A DNA stretch of 64,000 nucleotides from Sulfurimonas sp. (GTDB lineage Bacteria; Campylobacterota; Campylobacteria; Campylobacterales; Sulfurimonadaceae), in assembly GCF_028713515.1 (NCBI RefSeq), contig NZ_JAQTOD010000004.1, positions 124,001-188,000 of the forward strand. The letters run 5' to 3'. Each line of letters opens with the position of its first letter. Position 1 is the stretch's first letter. Made by a program: the position numbers and the translations under genes. Of the stretch, positions 50,414 through 57,539 are shown one piece after another. Below the pieces are notes generated by a model. That model had not been told where the DNA came from. It was given only the letters and a program-made list of their open reading frames with translations, and made no database searches.

Positions 50414-50530
50414 ATGCTCATGGAAAAAAATTTGCAAAATAGAGAATTTATAGACTTTGTAAAAAATATTAAACAGAAGATATATGGTGCAAAATCAAAA
50501 GCGATACTCTTGGCAAACAGGATGATTTAA
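50414..50530 (+). pseudogene. N-terminal relic of a DUF1016/YhcG-type gene
   Basis: A 38-codon frame reads NLQNREFIDFVKNIKQKIY and AKSKAILLANRMI before TAA. It resembles the N-terminal helix of DUF1016 proteins (…FI..IKQKI..A...ALLAVNREMI.LYW), stopping just where that motif continues. It is not a close copy of the intact gene at 21242. The rest of the gene is missing and replaced by a transporter fragment. Confidence 0.4.
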
Positions 50531-51038
50531 ATATCACTAGATTATGAGAAAAAATCACTAAGTGGTGATCAAAAAAAGATACTTTCGCTCATTGGCGGAG
50601 TTATCACACTTCTTTTGCTAAACGCTCCACTTGACTCTTTTTGGAGTGGACTTGGGCTAAACGAGAGTGTTATTTTACTAATTGCTGGGCTTTTGCTTTT
50701 TGCTCCACCTTTTTTCTATCCTTGATTGGATGGAGGATAAAGGCAAGGTTCCTTTTAGAGTTATGTTCCTTTTTGGTGCAGGATTTTCAATTGTCGCTGC
50801 TTTTAGCTCGAGTGGTTTAGCAAATGAAGTGACTTCTTATCTTCTGGCTTTAACTAACCTACCTGCTATATTTGTCTTTATCTCTATCGCAATTCTTGTG
50901 ACTTTTACAACCGAGATAACTTCAAATACTGCTCTAATCTTTGTGATGCTCCCAATCATCTATGCTCTCTCAATTCAAGCCAACATGGATACAGAGCTGT
51001 TTTTTGTAGTGATAATTGCTAAATTTTTTTGGAGATAG
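50531..51038 (+). pseudogene. Frameshifted fragment of an SLC13/DASS anion:sodium symporter
   Basis: From 50531 the frame reads YEKKSLSGDQKKILSLIGG, then NESVILLIAGLLLFAPPFF to a TGA at 50723. A shift of one frame near 50710 restores ILDWMEDKGKVPFRVMFLFGAGFSIVAAFSSSGLANEV and TFTTEITSNTALIFVMLP, typical of the second half of SLC13-type carriers. The sequence ends at a stop after AKFFWR, before the last conserved helices. With both ends missing and a frameshift it is not functional. Confidence 0.65.
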
Positions 51039-51390: not shown

Positions 51391-52584
51391 TCAAACTAGA
51401 CGCAGACAAAATATATTTTCTCCCTCTTCATGAGAATAGAGTAGTGAGAAGTTGTGTTTAGCAACTATCTTCTCTACTATGCTAAGACCTAGCCCAAACC
51501 CATCCCTTTGAGATAGCTCTTGCGTGAAGGGTTTTAGATAGTAATCGAGCTCTTTTGATAACTTTTTCCCTCTGTTGATAACGCAAATCTTCTTGGTTGA
51601 AATTTTAATAGCTATAGGCAGTACAGTTGCATATTTTAGTGCATTATCTATAAGGTTTTTGAGTGCGACCGAGAGATAGTGCAAGTCCGCTTCTATCTTA
51701 AAATCATCCTCTATTTCAATGGTTATGCTTGATTCATCGTTTATGTAGAGTTTACTTAGTGCTTCTGTTACCAAAGTCTCTGCGCTAAATATTGAGAGAT
51801 TTAGTTTTGTGGAGTTTAACTTCTCTAGCTCCAAGAGCTCATTTGTTAAAACCTCTAAATCTAAAAATATCTTTTGAAGAAGTTCTTTTTGGGATACATT
51901 TTCTACTTTTTGGATAACGAACTTCCCCTTTGCTATTGGTGTTCTAAGTTCATGACCTATGTCTCTTAAGAGTTCTTCCCTGCTTTTTAAAAGTTCTCCC
52001 AAAGAGGTTGCCATTGAGTTTAGGGCATCTGAGAGCATTTGCATCTCGTCATTTGACTTTACCTCTATTTTATTATTGAAGTCTCCGTTAGAGAGATTCT
52101 TAATTCCTTTTGTGATTTTTTTAAGTGGAGCGAGCAGTTTTAAAAGATATAAAAAGATAAGCAAAAGGACAAAAGTATCTAAAAAAATAAGGATATTAAG
52201 TATCAACTTGTCGTTAATATTCTCCTCATTCGGTGTTTTTAGGTTGTAACTCTCATCAAGAAAATTTATCTCTATGATAAACTCATCTTCAAAAGACCCC
52301 TTTTTTATAGAGATAAAGCCAAAAGTGTGTTTTTCAAAGTAGAGAACTTCTCTCTTGCTTTCATCATCTTTATCAACTCTTACAAGATCGTATTTTTTGA
52401 TGAGCTCTTCAACTCTATCGTTGTTGTCAATATTTTGAAATATCTCATTAGCAATTTTTAGGTATTTTTCTTTTATAAGCTCATCCACTCTTTTGGAGTT
52501 AATGTTATCTATCCAAAATCCTATAACACTCATAAGGATAAAGCTTGTTAAAAAAAGTATTGATATTTTTCTGAGGATTGACAT
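51391..52584 (-). CDS. Sensor histidine kinase of the SHP/DHC cytochrome cluster
   Basis: The 397-residue kinase has membrane segments at about 7-24 and 128-150 around a ~100-residue sensor region, then a HAMP domain (LLAPLKKITKGIKNLSNGDFNNKIE). Phospho-His211 lies in DIGHELRTPIAKG, followed by an N box (NLIDNALKYA) and a short ATPase domain (GFGLGLSIVEKIVAKH). It begins 1 bp after its regulator. What it senses is unknown; cluster context suggests a redox, NO or oxygen-related or envelope signal. Confidence 0.92.
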   Translation of the reverse strand: MSILRKISILFLTSFILMSVIGFWIDNINSKRVDELIKEKYLKIANEIFQNIDNNDRVEELIKKYDLVRVDKDDESKREVLYFEKHTFGFISIKKGSFEDEFIIEINFLDESYNLKTPNEENINDKLILNILIFLDTFVLLLIFLYLLKLLAPLKKITKGIKNLSNGDFNNKIEVKSNDEMQMLSDALNSMATSLGELLKSREELLRDIGHELRTPIAKGKFVIQKVENVSQKELLQKIFLDLEVLTNELLELEKLNSTKLNLSIFSAETLVTEALSKLYINDESSITIEIEDDFKIEADLHYLSVALKNLIDNALKYATVLPIAIKISTKKICVINRGKKLSKELDYYLKPFTQELSQRDGFGLGLSIVEKIVAKHNFSLLYSHEEGENIFCLRLV

Positions 52585-52585
52585 G

Positions 52586-53251
52586 CTAGCTCACAAACTT
52601 ATAACCGATGCCCCATACGGACTTGATGAACAGAGGCTCTTTTGAATCATCACCTATCTTGTTTCTTATGTTGCTTATGTGTGTATCGACTGTTCTGTTT
52701 TTTGTGTTTTCATCCAGTGAAGTCGCGTTTATGATCTGCTCTCGTGAGGATATTTTGTTTATGTTTTCTACTAAAAAGAGAAATATCTCAAACTCTATTT
52801 TTGTAAAATCAATCGCGTAGCCATCCAAAAGAACCTCTCTGTTTGCTTTATCTATCAGAAACTCTCCAGCTCGTATCTTCGCATCTTGCGGCTTTTTGAG
52901 AATATGCTCTATCCGTAAAACAAGCTCTCGTGGCTCATAAGGTTTTGCCAAGTAGTCATCCGCTCCAAGATCAAAACCGTGTATTTTGTTTCCTATGTCT
53001 CCTCTTGCTGAAGAGATTATTATGGGGATACTGCTTATGTTTTTTATCTTCTTTAAAACATCAAAACCGTCCATGTCAGGGAGCATTAGGTCCAGTATGA
53101 CGATAGAGTAAGAGCCATTTTTCTCAAGCTCTTCTATGGCATCTTTGGGGTGAGCAAATGCGTTACATATAAAGCCAAACTCTTTTAAATACTCTCCTAT
53201 AAGTTCTTGCATCTGCAAGTCATCCTCGATAAGTAAAACTTTTTTATTCAA
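52586..53251 (-). CDS. OmpR-family response regulator of the SHP/DHC cluster
   Basis: A 221-residue regulator with a receiver (E9/D10/D11 pocket, phospho-Asp54 in VILDLMLPDMDG, Lys in YLAKPYEPRELVLRI) and a winged-helix DNA-binding domain (KISSREQIINAT, VDTHISNIRNKIGDD, VWGIGYKFV). It overlaps the Spy-like gene by 8 bp and precedes its kinase. A direct-repeat site upstream of shp (55731-55749) is a plausible target. Confidence 0.95.
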   Translation of the reverse strand: MNKKVLLIEDDLQMQELIGEYLKEFGFICNAFAHPKDAIEELEKNGSYSIVILDLMLPDMDGFDVLKKIKNISSIPIIISSARGDIGNKIHGFDLGADDYLAKPYEPRELVLRIEHILKKPQDAKIRAGEFLIDKANREVLLDGYAIDFTKIEFEIFLFLVENINKISSREQIINATSLDENTKNRTVDTHISNIRNKIGDDSKEPLFIKSVWGIGYKFVS

Positions 53252-53660
53252 CTCTCCACTCCCGTAAATAGTATGAAAAACTCTCTCTTTGCGATGGTGA
53301 TAAGATAGAGTGAATTCTTTTTAAGGTCTTAACTTCAAGAGTCGTAGCATCTTTTTGTATCTCTTTTACAATCTCTTCATACTTCTCTTTACTAAATTCA
53401 TCTTCTCTCATTAGCTCTTGGAGTTTTTTTTCTCTTTTTTCTCTTTTTTTATTAAATTTTTCATAATCTTTCTTATACTCTAGAAGTATCTCTCTCATCT
53501 CTTTATATTGATTTTTGCCAAGGCTTAAGTATTCAAGATTTTTGTAAATGTGGTGTTTTTTCTCTTCATTCTCGTGTTTATAATTACCATCTCCATAAAG
53601 AGAAAATGATAAAAATAGACTACATAAAAGCGTTAATATCTTTAATTTTATCATTTTCAA
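53244..53660 (-). CDS. Spy/CpxP-like periplasmic protein
   Basis: The 138-residue protein has a signal peptide (about 1-21, ending SLYG) and a highly charged, helical body (Lys/Glu-rich, 50-110). It carries an LTxxQ-like motif, LSPSQRESF, near the C-terminus, as in Spy/CpxP and related metal-sensing proteins. Such proteins often modulate an adjacent two-component sensor. It overlaps the cytochrome gene by 41 bp and the regulator by 8 bp. Confidence 0.75.
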   Translation of the reverse strand: MKMIKLKILTLLCSLFLSFSLYGDGNYKHENEEKKHHIYKNLEYLSLGKNQYKEMREILLEYKKDYEKFNKKREKREKKLQELMREDEFSKEKYEEIVKEIQKDATTLEVKTLKRIHSILSPSQRESFSYYLREWRVE

Positions 53661-54735
53661 TCAATCCTTTTTCTATATCACTATGACACGCTTTGCAGTT
53701 TGCTTTGCTCTTCACATCTTTATGTGCAAAAACTTTTTTTGGTATATCTTTATGCTTTTTTTTCCAAAAATCACTCTGAGTTATTGCTATTATATCTTTA
53801 TTTTTTATCGAATCTAAAACCTTGACGCTTACTTTTTGTGTTGAGGTCTCAGCGCTATTTCGTACCAAAAAGTCTAAAATATCTCTGTTATCTTTCTCGC
53901 TAAGTGAAGCATCATCTCCAAAATGATTCTCCAAACCACCCATCATAGTTACCCATGAAGTAGCTGGTAGCGTGTGTGGTGGATAGATGATATGGCAAGA
54001 TGCACACTCTTTGACAAACAGTGGATTTAGCTTTTTATAATCAACGCTCATGTGTTTTGATGCAACAAGCGGATTGTTTTTTATGCTTATGTTAAAAATA
54101 AAAAAGACAACAAACAGAGCCAAAAATATTAGAGCAAAAAGTTTTTGAGCGATATTTAGCTTGATACTGTAATCCTCGCTCGTTACTTTAATACCGTTAA
54201 ATATTGAACTTAGCGTTTTATGCGCTGGGTGAAGTACTCTATCGCTAAAAATGCCGAGCAGATGCACTGCGATAAGGGCAAGTAAGAGATTACTAAAGAA
54301 CTCATGTATGTCTTTAAAGAGCTCCATTTTTTTGAAAAAAGTGCTATTTAGTGATGAGAGCAAACCTTTTCCCTCTTCAACACCAAGAGTTAAGATGCCT
54401 GTAAGTATGGTTAGAAAAACCACTATAAAAATCCCTATCATCACATAGGAGGCGATAGGGTTGTGCCCAATGTATTTCTGCTTAGAGCTAAAGATGTTTA
54501 ACGCAAACTCTTTCGCATCTCTAAATGCGAGTGGAAAATCTTTAAATCTTGAGTATTTTGGACCAATGTAGCCCCAAAAAAATCTAAACACAAGTAGAAT
54601 CAAAACTCCATAACCAATAAGCGCATGATAGTTTAGCAACTTGCCATCATCAGTTAAAAAAGCTAAAAGTATCAACCCCACAAAGAGCCAATGAAAGAGT
54701 CTTGAGGGAAGCGACCAGATGTAAGAGTTAAACAT
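53620..54735 (-). CDS. Cytochrome b561 fused to a C-terminal diheme cytochrome c (DHC) domain
   Basis: Residues ~1-210 form a cytochrome b561-type membrane domain (WSLPSRLFHWLFVGLILLAF; His in HALIGYGVLILLVFRFFWGYIGP; DIHEFFSNLLLALIAVHLLGIF). A further helix follows, then a periplasmic DHC domain with haems in ECASCHIIY and NCKACHSD. That domain is clearly paralogous to the separate DHC gene upstream. I use ATG 54735, preceded by AAGGAGAG; an in-frame GTG/TTG upstream (54759) is less likely. It would pass electrons from quinol or periplasmic donors through haem b to haem c. Confidence 0.9.
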   Translation of the reverse strand: MFNSYIWSLPSRLFHWLFVGLILLAFLTDDGKLLNYHALIGYGVLILLVFRFFWGYIGPKYSRFKDFPLAFRDAKEFALNIFSSKQKYIGHNPIASYVMIGIFIVVFLTILTGILTLGVEEGKGLLSSLNSTFFKKMELFKDIHEFFSNLLLALIAVHLLGIFSDRVLHPAHKTLSSIFNGIKVTSEDYSIKLNIAQKLFALIFLALFVVFFIFNISIKNNPLVASKHMSVDYKKLNPLFVKECASCHIIYPPHTLPATSWVTMMGGLENHFGDDASLSEKDNRDILDFLVRNSAETSTQKVSVKVLDSIKNKDIIAITQSDFWKKKHKDIPKKVFAHKDVKSKANCKACHSDIEKGLIENDKIKDINAFM

Positions 54736-54746
54736 TTTCTCTCCTT

Positions 54747-55253
54747 TTAATCTTTCCATTTGCCATAGTTAGGGATTAAAACATCACTCTCGCCATATAT
54801 CCATTTTTGGGCAGTAGTATGACACGCTGTGCAGTTAAATATACCTTTAACCTCTTTTTGTGTAATCAAACTTGCCTTTATATCTCTATGCTTTTTAATG
54901 ATATATGGAGTTTTTGATATAGACTCAGGGATCTCCCCTGCTCTTAAGCTGTCCACAATCTTAGCACTCCTTTTGTAGTTCATAAATTTCTCAGCACTAT
55001 TGTTGTTCAAGTAGCGCGAAATAGAGAGATAATCCTCTTCTTCCAAACTAGCATCTGAGCCAAAATGGTTGCTAAGATTTAACATCATCTTGTTCCAGGC
55101 TTTTGAGGGCAGAAGCCCTGGCTGATATGCAAAATGACAAGAACCACACTCTTTTTTGTAGAGCTCATTTGTTACCGGAGCAACATCGCTTTTGTTAAAA
55201 CTAGATGCAAAAACTGCACTTGTTAGTGCTACTGTTAAAATTAATGACTTCAT
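54747..55253 (-). CDS. Diheme cytochrome c DHC
   Basis: A 168-residue exported protein (signal ~1-17, SAVFAS). Haem c sites are C36-x2-C39-H40 and C141-x2-C144-H145. The stretch LPSKAWNKMMLNLSNHFGSDASLEEEDY is characteristic of the DHC family (diheme cytochromes that donate electrons to SHP). It lies 9 bp after shp on the same strand. Confidence 0.92.
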   Translation of the reverse strand: MKSLILTVALTSAVFASSFNKSDVAPVTNELYKKECGSCHFAYQPGLLPSKAWNKMMLNLSNHFGSDASLEEEDYLSISRYLNNNSAEKFMNYKRSAKIVDSLRAGEIPESISKTPYIIKKHRDIKASLITQKEVKGIFNCTACHTTAQKWIYGESDVLIPNYGKWKD

Positions 55254-55262
55254 TTTAGCTCC

Positions 55263-55664
55263 TTATTTGTTAATGATGTAAGTTACTACATCACCTTTTT
55301 CTAGGGTTGTTCCCTCACGGTTATAAACATCGTTGAAGTTTCTTCTTATCCACTTCTCGATTGTCTTGATGTCACTAAATCTCTTTGGGTTTGCTTTTGG
55401 TGAGAGCGGTTCAATCTCTTTTGTGGTAAAGTAGTTCTTACTTACTTTATTTAAATCATTCCCATGACAAGATGTACACGAAATCTCCTTGCCTTTTTTT
55501 CCTATATGTTTTGAAGTAAAAACAGACTCTCCTCTTTTTGTATCAAACCCACTGAACTTAGGATTTTCAGATTTGGCTTGTTTTGCAAGAGTGAGCAGAT
55601 ACTCATCCGCAACCGATGCAAACGAGATACTAAAGAGTGAAAGTATGGTGATTATAAGTTTCAT
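55263..55664 (-). CDS. shp: SHP-type monoheme cytochrome c (DUF1924)
   Basis: The 133-residue protein has a signal peptide (about 1-17) and one haem site C63-x2-C66-H67 (SCTSCHGND). The context and pattern (GFDTKRGESVFTSKH, SPKANPKRFSD, IEKWIRRNFNDVYNRE) match DUF1924, the sphaeroides haem protein family. In Rhodobacter, SHP has an Asn as sixth haem ligand that is displaced by O2 or NO; the Asn-rich RRNFNDVYN segment is a candidate here. It is the first gene of the cytochrome cluster. Confidence 0.88.
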   Translation of the reverse strand: MKLIITILSLFSISFASVADEYLLTLAKQAKSENPKFSGFDTKRGESVFTSKHIGKKGKEISCTSCHGNDLNKVSKNYFTTKEIEPLSPKANPKRFSDIKTIEKWIRRNFNDVYNREGTTLEKGDVVTYIINK

Positions 55665-55902
55665 TTTTCTTCCTTTTGTTGTTATATGTTGAAAGTATAA
55701 AATGATTGTGTCAAATGTTTATGTGTACTCTCTTGACAGTTTCTTGACATTTAGAGAGTTACGAAGAGATGGCAACTTTTGGATTGTTAAATATTGTGAT
55801 TTGCTAATGGGGATAAGGAGTAAAAAATACTCATCATACATAACATTAGATTAGTATTAGATAGTTTCACATATGGTAGTTTGGACTCCAGTTTAGTGCT
55901 AG
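55665..55902 (-). promoter_or_regulatory. shp upstream region with 11-bp-period direct repeat
   Basis: The octamer TCTTGACA occurs at 55731-55738 and 55742-55749, exactly 11 bp apart; a related TGTCAA lies at 55709-55714. Such one-turn direct repeats suit OmpR-family regulators, and the cluster encodes one. Between the repeats and the shp ATG the minus strand has TTGACA at 55709-55714 but no ideal -10 box. Farther up there is only a short GAGTA-AAAAA-TACTC hairpin (about 55818-55832). Confidence 0.45.
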
Positions 55903-56160
55903 CTTGATTTTCTCAGACGACAATCTCTCAACGATGTCTTATTTAAAGCGTTAAATTACGGGAATGAGCAGAGTAAAACGCTTAGTAAGTTTTTAACTTC
56001 TATTATTATTGCACTATCTATTGAGTCGTTAATGGCTGTTTTCAAGATTGTTCTTGATGACTATAACAAGTTAATAAATGCTTTTTATCTAGTGCTTGGA
56101 GTAACGCTTGTGATAGTAGGAACTGGTGTGTACAATATGCTTTCTCGTAGGAGTGAGTAG
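55903..56160 (+). pseudogene. N-terminally truncated membrane protein
   Basis: An open frame without ATG/GTG/TTG near its start reads RRQSLNDVLFKALNYGNEQS, then KFLTSIIIALSIESLMAVFKIVL and NAFYLVLGVTLVIVGTGVYNMLSRRS to TAG. Two membrane helices are clear. It resembles, from memory, small membrane proteins called general glycosylation pathway proteins in Sulfurimonas. The beginning is missing (stop at 55900-55902), so it is probably a relic, unless an unusual start is used. Confidence 0.5.
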
Positions 56161-56303: not shown

Positions 56304-57539
56304 TTGTATTTTTTAGAGGCGCTAAAGCTCAGAAGCAAGCTTTTTTTTATTTTAATTATTATCACCATCGGTTTAATTATGGTTGGAATTATGGGTGCCA
56401 TCAATATAAACTCTATGAAAAAAAATCTTGATTCACTATATTTTGGCTCTCTTTTGCCGGTAATAGAACTTAACGGTATCGTCGAGGCATATCATGGCAA
56501 TATGTACAACACAGTGTATAAGGCAAAAAATGGTGATATCAGCCAAAGTGATGCAGAGTTTGAGATAAAAAGTGCAATTGTAAAAGCAAATGAAGAGTGG
56601 AAATCTTATGAATCTCACTTTAAAAGATATGAAGAGGTTGGGTATGTTGAGTATACGGCTTCGGAGATAAAAAATACAAATGAGTATTTGGAAAAAATGC
56701 TAAAAGCAATTTCTGATGGACATAATATACAAAATTTATCGATTGATAATTTTGAGAAAACAGTAGAGCATATCCACCAAGTAGTAGATAAACTAATCTC
56801 TTATGAGATTGAAATTGCAAAATATGAGCGGAAAAAATTTTTGCAGATGTATGACTCTATGATGATTAAAGTTGGTTCCATACTAATCATTATTATTCTT
56901 GGTATTGTGGTTATCTCATTTTATGTATTTAAGAGTATTCAAAAAGATCAAACTATGCTTGAGATCGCAACAAAAAAGTTAAAAAATGCTAATAAAAGAT
57001 TGGAAAATGCTTCGTATACGGACTCGCTAACCGGACTCTATAATAGGCGTTATTTTAATCTTGTTTATGAGCGGGAGCTAAGAAGAGCCAAGAGAAGTAA
57101 CTCCTTTATCACTTTTATGATGTTAGATATTGATTATTTTAAACAGTACAATGATACTTATGGACATATAGAGGGAGACAATGCGCTAAAGAGTGTTGCG
57201 AAAACCCTAAAGAGTGTTCTAAAGAGACCGAGTGATTTTGTTTTTAGGCTTGGTGGAGAGGAGTTTGGTATCTTGATGGCTGAAACTTGTGAACTAAACA
57301 GTATAAAGCTAGCGCAAGCAATTTGTGATAGTGTGAGAATGAGTGCAATAAAACATGAGGGCTCAAAGGTCAATGAGTTTATGACTATATCTGTTGGTGT
57401 TGCTTGTTGCATTGCGGATGAAGCTCTCAATGAAGAGGTTTTAATAACAAAGGCGGATGAGATGTTATACAGAGCAAAAGAGAGCGGAAGAGATAGATAT
57501 GAGATTACTTCTGATATTAGCGAGGCAACTACGCTTTGA
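56304..57539 (+). CDS. Membrane diguanylate cyclase with four-helix-bundle sensor
   Basis: The protein makes cyclic di-GMP. Two membrane segments (about 12-34 and 187-210) flank a ~150-residue helical periplasmic domain like the 4HB sensor of chemoreceptors. The C-terminal GGDEF domain has RLGGEEFGIL (active site GGEEF, ~317) and, eight residues before, the RPSD product-inhibition site. It starts at TTG 56304, with AAAGGAAA upstream. An ATG at 56300 is out of frame. Confidence 0.93.
   Translation: MYFLEALKLRSKLFFILIIITIGLIMVGIMGAININSMKKNLDSLYFGSLLPVIELNGIVEAYHGNMYNTVYKAKNGDISQSDAEFEIKSAIVKANEEWKSYESHFKRYEEVGYVEYTASEIKNTNEYLEKMLKAISDGHNIQNLSIDNFEKTVEHIHQVVDKLISYEIEIAKYERKKFLQMYDSMMIKVGSILIIIILGIVVISFYVFKSIQKDQTMLEIATKKLKNANKRLENASYTDSLTGLYNRRYFNLVYERELRRAKRSNSFITFMMLDIDYFKQYNDTYGHIEGDNALKSVAKTLKSVLKRPSDFVFRLGGEEFGILMAETCELNSIKLAQAICDSVRMSAIKHEGSKVNEFMTISVGVACCIADEALNEEVLITKADEMLYRAKESGRDRYEITSDISEATTL

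Follow-up and report, generated by a model that had tools for sequence, protein, structure and literature searches.

The window analysed here comprises 64,000 nucleotides (nt) of a Sulfurimonas sp. genome (GCF_028713515.1, NZ_JAQTOD010000004.1 positions 124,001-188,000; the coordinates below are window positions). On its minus strand, at 51391-55664, six genes run in one direction and are tightly packed, with short gaps or overlaps. The cluster is likely to be an SHP (sphaeroides haem protein) operon of Arcobacteraceae lineage, in which a cytochrome chain leads to an SHP that binds O2 or nitric oxide (NO) and which is controlled by its own regulator. This reading builds on the gene content and its conserved order, the protein families, the SHP ligand residues, a sequence box that co-occurs with the kinase-regulator pair and is present once in the genome, and the phylogeny of the operon, all of which were directly observed. 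The features are as follows, in the direction of transcription.

55731-55749 (-): direct repeat TGTCAAGAAAC-TGTCAAGA, putative regulator binding site, 19/19 match to the conserved box
55263-55664 (-): SHP, 133 amino acids (aa), signal peptide, one CxxCH; PF09086, PDB 1dw0
54747-55253 (-): soluble dihaem cytochrome c (sDHC), 168 aa, signal peptide; PF09626, PDB 3u99
53620-54759 (-): cytochrome b561 fused to a membrane-tethered DHC (CytB/mDHC chimera); PF01292 and PF09626 in one frame
53980-53985 (-): TAT CCA within the fusion gene, by codon comparison the counterpart of the Arcobacteraceae +1 slip site (TAT CCC); no shift
53244-53654 (-): Spy/CpxP-like periplasmic helical protein, 136 aa from the ATG at 53654, signal peptide
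52586-53251 (-): OmpR/PhoB-type response regulator; PF00072 and PF00486
51391-52584 (-): ArsS-family sensor histidine kinase; NF038389, with HAMP, HisKA and HATPase domains

The gene identities given in an earlier note on this DNA were correct for all six co-directional genes, backed by Pfam, NCBIfam and structure matches, the Spy-like label being weak by sequence; the interpretation attached to them was partly supported. SHP matched the Pfam family DUF1924 (PF09086, 3e-35, 120.8 bits against a cut-off of 22.5) and aligned to the solved structures 1dw0 (1e-18) and 1e8e. The soluble DHC matched PF09626 (8e-37) and the structures 3u99 (6e-26) and 2fw5. The fusion of b561 to a second, paralogous DHC was also borne out, since PF01292 (7e-25) and PF09626 (1e-33) were found within a single open reading frame of 379 aa, and both DHC copies, soluble and fused, carry PF09626 with two CxxCH motifs. 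The true start of the fusion gene is likely the ATG at 54735, which lies behind AAAGGAG. The regulator consists of a receiver (Response_reg) and a winged helix (Trans_reg_C). In the kinase, HAMP and HATPase_c were detected by Pfam, and its score against the ArsS-family model exceeded the cut-off (275.8 versus 250 bits). Its predicted structure displayed only a small periplasmic alpha/beta domain, with no pointer to a ligand, and nothing indicating O2 or NO sensing was seen in its sequence.

SHP was found in 86 of 397 Campylobacterota genomes, spread over 26 of 68 genera. The neighbourhoods of 88 loci were examined, followed by 30 further ones from Arcobacteraceae (118 in total). The order SHP-sDHC-b561/mDHC was near universal among them. 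The Spy-like gene, the response regulator and the histidine kinase come next in most lineages, and nothing comparable stands there in most Campylobacter- and Helicobacter-type lineages; the pair is missing from 26 of the 118 loci, a few of these being cut at contig ends. The six-gene order is kept across Sulfurimonadaceae, Arcobacteraceae, Sulfurospirillum, Sulfurovum and others. Since it recurs in most of the 88 loci, the six-gene set is not a chance assembly. Two oddities were met during this survey. An SHP operon on an 11,129-base contig (L176 of G450 and L128 of G004) recurs, with the same length and title pattern, in an Arcobacter and a Sulfurimonas assembly of one project (L270, L273), which is likely cross-contamination of bins. 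Frame breaks confined to single genomes, in b561 of L054 (G055) and in sDHC of L128 (G004), are absent from sister genomes and are probably errors or pseudogenes without meaning.

Operons of this kind are known, and the regulatory site is what is newly recognised here. Meyer 2010 (PMC2909971) describes SHP, DHC and a membrane CytB as a single electron pathway. Rhodobacter and Shewanella, named in the earlier note, are not the only other groups with such a unit, and the fusion is not particular to this DNA: the paper already has Campylobacterota SHP operons, and the organisms for which it reports a CytB/mDHC fusion are R. sphaeroides, Rhodoferax and four Campylobacterota. Novelty of the fusion was thus ruled out, although Sulfurimonas is not named among its carriers there. 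The R. sphaeroides operon (CytB/mDHC-SHP-sDHC) shares the three proteins and the fusion with the window, but it has another gene order, no regulatory genes according to the same text, and an SHP with the C89-C97 disulfide. The operons of C. fetus and A. butzleri, which carry their own kinase type (SK3), resemble the window in the fusion, the in-operon regulatory genes and the missing disulfide, whereas a Spy-like gene and a regulator box go unmentioned in the available text. Compared with SHP-operon kinases of Arcobacteraceae, the window kinase was 39-64% identical (mean 60%). The six-gene SHP operon of Shewanella oneidensis has SHP, DHC, CytB, a kinase, a regulator and a small extra ORF (open reading frame), like the window; in contrast, its kinase is of type SK1 and occurs with Orf1, a different class, and the available description does not list it with a CytB/DHC fusion.

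A conserved direct repeat with an 11-base-pair (bp) period, TGTMAAGAAANTGTMAAGA, was found upstream of shp. Such a period is typical of sites bound by OmpR-family regulators. The box was counted as present when at least 16 of its 19 positions matched; by this measure, 84 of the 92 operons that encode the kinase-regulator pair have it and 0 of the 24 operons lacking the pair do, and shuffled sequence gave a mean of 12.3 of 19. The proposal that the pair is part of the unit gains from this, as the box before shp tracks the pair. In the window all 19 positions match and the box lies 66 bp ahead of the shp start codon. The 2.0-Mb genome holds this single copy at up to 1 mismatch, and at that stringency no other regulator target was detected in it. 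A single box in the genome makes the circuit look dedicated and self-contained. The box is a putative binding site of the regulator.

The Spy-like protein was assigned with more caution. Its LTXXQ score was 20.2 against a cut-off of 24.3, Metal_resist was likewise below its cut-off in Pfam, and the CpxP/Spy NCBIfam models gave E values of 1e-7 to 1e-6 with 32 against a cut-off of 148; as these cut-offs were not reached, the protein is called no more than Spy-like. The label, weak by sequence, is backed by a predicted structure (mean pLDDT, predicted local distance difference test, of 88). Nearly all of the 19 best PDB matches in Foldseek were Spy, CnrX, CpxP or ZraP, each match being weak (E 0.12 or worse); the Spy match had a probability of 0.99, but an E value of 0.12 and a template modelling (TM) score of about 0.5. 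The protein probably shares the helical fold of those families and, like them, has LTxxQ-like motifs and a gene beside a two-component pair; it differs from them in scoring below the family cut-offs and in sitting within a cytochrome operon. Its mature N-terminus is rich in His, Asp, Glu and Lys. The gene was present in 88 of the 92 operons with the pair and in 1 of the 26 without; over the 118 loci, both were found in 88, neither in 25, the pair alone in 4 and the Spy-like gene alone in 1 (at a contig edge). The four loci from which it is cleanly gone with the pair kept are two of Campylobacter type (L105, L122) and two of Arcobacteraceae (L156, L159). Judged by this distribution, the Spy-like protein would assist the signalling as a partner but lie outside its core.

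The residues expected for ligand chemistry are in place in the window SHP, whose distal W and N align to W84 and N88 of R. sphaeroides. In the alignment of Campylobacterota SHPs the distal Trp84 was conserved in 118 of 118 and Asn88 in 117 of 118. The C89-C97 disulfide is absent from the window protein, which has F and G at these positions, and the cysteine pair is also missing in essentially all 118 sequences. The disulfide was not taken as SHP-defining, since Meyer 2010 (PMC2909971) counts members without it, from C. fetus, A. butzleri and W. succinogenes, as SHP. The same text calls SHP the sole known c-type haem protein that binds O2, assigns its function tentatively, and gives for R. sphaeroides electron transfer from DHC to SHP, an O2 complex and a reported NO dioxygenase activity. 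By analogy with these homologues it is plausible that the unit senses and consumes O2 or NO, as had been proposed.

On the strength of characterised homologues, quinol electrons would pass to the b561 part, from there to the tethered DHC domain, then to the soluble DHC and finally to SHP. Reduced SHP would release its Asn ligand and bind O2 or NO, and the outcome might be a periplasmic NO-dioxygenase, oxygenase or ligand-scavenging activity. Control of this one operon would be exerted by the ArsS-family kinase and its regulator via the direct repeat that lies 66 bp ahead of shp. CpxP and CnrX are periplasmic partners of their sensors; the Spy-like protein may play the same part for the kinase here, or may be an envelope chaperone that is produced along with the cytochromes. 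Several points weigh against this scheme. In cytochrome c'', a homologue, ligand release stops when the disulfide is reduced (PMC2909971); Campylobacterota SHPs do not have this disulfide and may therefore switch ligands differently, and the literature yielded no biochemical data on any of them. About 19 operons of Campylobacter or Helicobacter type keep the cytochromes without regulatory genes, which shows that the regulation is separable, and the four operons with the pair and no Spy-like gene indicate that this protein is not essential to signalling.

Three other functions were weighed. The chain could be mainly an electron outlet (an auxiliary oxidase, or peroxide or nitrite handling), with ligand binding by SHP being incidental. 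Respiratory systems commonly use a quinol-linked b561 to feed c-type haems, and the function of SHP was assigned only tentatively by Meyer 2010 (PMC2909971); this option is nevertheless unlikely, given the practically invariant distal Trp/Asn of Campylobacterota SHPs, as expected under selected ligand chemistry. Equally doubtful is an envelope- or metal-stress module, in which metals or misfolded proteins would be sensed by the Spy/CnrX/ZraP-like protein and the kinase, with the cytochromes serving as stress effectors. The predicted fold with its metal-binding relatives (CnrX, ZraP), the His/Asp/Glu-rich N-terminus, and the CzcD and other metal-transport genes near some SHP operons (PMC2909971, available text) would agree with it, but there is no metal transport gene among the ORFs adjoining the window operon, and with the box only before shp no stress regulon was seen. 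It is improbable that SHP is itself a receptor, signalling its ligand-bound or redox state to the kinase with the Spy-like protein as go-between: the pair and the Spy-like gene do lie inside the operon with the box before shp, yet operons without the pair are common and no interaction evidence was found.

In a tree of the fusion protein, the window operon and those of two congeners fell within the Arcobacteraceae clade with 100/100 support. Other Sulfurimonas are on average also less similar than Arcobacteraceae in the remaining five proteins; the difference is clearest for the kinase (mean identity of 39% versus 60%) and smallest for sDHC (56% versus 57%). The window's genus is nonetheless Sulfurimonas, as its closest named relatives are assemblies of that genus, one of them labelled S. 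crateris (91% identity over the DHC domain). Because of the Arcobacteraceae placement in a Sulfurimonas host, horizontal transfer of the entire operon fits best and probably took place. A decayed citrate/sulfate-symporter gene (CitMHS fragment, broken frames) is found at 50520-51038 (+), downstream of the operon and a small Dabb gene. Upstream, at 55960-56160 (+), a C-terminal piece of 66 aa is left of a membrane protein that is conserved in Sulfurimonas and measures about 300 aa in congeners. Decayed pieces on both flanks suggest that the operon lies in a degraded, possibly transferred stretch. A diguanylate cyclase with a 4HB_MCP periplasmic sensor domain (56304-57539, +) adjoins the operon on the opposite strand.

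The b561-DHC genes of Arcobacteraceae are the nearest homologues of the window gene, and comparison of the fusion genes revealed that 28 of the 50 loci from this family have a single additional base that interrupts the reading frame, each time at the same position. The break comes directly after the first haem motif, in GAG TGT NNN NNN TGY CAY ACT CTN TAT CCC WCC, and a +1 step after CCC restores an intact protein of 360-382 aa in 28 of 28. The shifted genes (L041, L048-L050, L053, L064, L071, L074, L077, L084, L085, L089, L093, L147, L148, L151-L153, L155, L157, L160-L163, L165, L167, L169 and L170) span 8 genera and many single-contig genomes, and their named carriers include Aliarcobacter cryaerophilus gv. 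crypticus LMG 9065, Malaciobacter halophilus DSM 18005 and Poseidonibacter lekithochrous A1R12. The window copy reads TAT CCA CCA; it is unshifted and needs no shift.

The sequence hallmarks of programmed +1 ribosomal frameshifting are all present in these 28 genes. In shifted genomes, proline is encoded by CCC in 8% of cases and serine by UCC in 3%, but CCC is invariant at the site. In 406 genes, 19 CCC-TCC and 11 CCC-ACC pairs were counted, and the slip sites themselves come to 19 and 9. Over 164 conserved codons, the codon bias beyond amino-acid need peaks at the slip site, with CCC ranking first and the rare codons CTG and TCG after it; GAG and ACT are invariant. A hairpin, GAGUGUG...CAYACUC, ends 5 nt before CCC and was more stable than synonymous controls in 28 of 28 genes (mean z of -3.2 versus -1.8 in unshifted Arcobacteraceae genes). 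Every one of the 28 shifted genomes contains the 15-mer ACTCTNTATCCCWCC a single time, and the other 76 of the 104 Arcobacteraceae genomes lack it; in a phylum-wide sample, a 21-base form of the site had no matches outside shifted genes. No slip site was found there in other genes or families; it is confined to the 28 Arcobacteraceae genomes. One complete shifted genome has a single tRNA-Pro (UGG), with no Ser(GGA) and no Thr(GGU) among the tRNAs found; from this set, the P-site CCC and the A-site UCC or ACC would all be read by wobble.

It is very likely that these genes can yield the full protein only by a programmed +1 frameshift at UAU-CCC-(U/A)CC, 5 nt below the hairpin and with a lone, wobble-decoding tRNA-Pro (UGG). 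To our knowledge, conserved +1 recoding in bacterial chromosomal genes is hardly documented beyond prfB. In prfB (release factor 2) the P-site tRNA slips by +1 just after UAU with an upstream duplex by the E site, as is proposed for the Arcobacteraceae homologues, whose invariant UAU ahead of the slip codon is also the E-site codon of prfB. In contrast to prfB, the slip codon is CCC, the A-site codon is the sense codon UCC or ACC instead of a stop, and an mRNA hairpin replaces the internal Shine-Dalgarno duplex. The tRNA-Pro(UGG) of E. coli is shift-prone at CCC (PMC4519876), and on 70S ribosomes an upstream hairpin beside the E site can take the role of that duplex in stimulating +1 frameshifting (PMC6321510). 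A literature search on Arcobacter, programmed frameshift and cytochrome gave no record of this shift, and Arcobacter is not mentioned in the GeneTack survey or in the available part of a 2016 recoding review.

Transcriptional slippage is unlikely, the run being CCC only. For tRNA-Pro(UGG), an expanded-loop suppressor was rejected, since its anticodon-loop stretch is normal and does not differ between shifted and unshifted genomes. A second intact copy that masks a dead gene was not found in 12 of 14 shifted genomes, and a paralogue of about 383 aa is present elsewhere in 2. That the 28 genes are pseudogenes or assembly errors is very improbable: the extra base does break the frame in every one of them, but it has the identical position in 28 genomes of 8 genera, many of them single-contig, the slip codons are invariant, the 15-mer is found once per shifted genome and nowhere else in the 104, and beyond the shift the protein is intact, with a ratio of non-synonymous to synonymous substitution rates (dN/dS) of 0.28 past the shift versus 0.27 ahead of it.

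On the tree there are at least 7 to 10 switches between the shifted and the unshifted state, which means either one origin with repeated loss or repeated origin. If the programmed frameshift is real, this would be a second conserved bacterial +1 recoding site beside prfB, one that some lineages have retained as a whole and others, the window's among them, have lost or never acquired. The membranes of shifted species would then be expected to hold a peptide spanning CHTLYPPNLLPK, and the case offers many natural on/off pairs among sister species. For the operon of the window, the inducing signal, and hence the role of SHP, is directly testable, as the regulator looks dedicated to one target and has a clear site.

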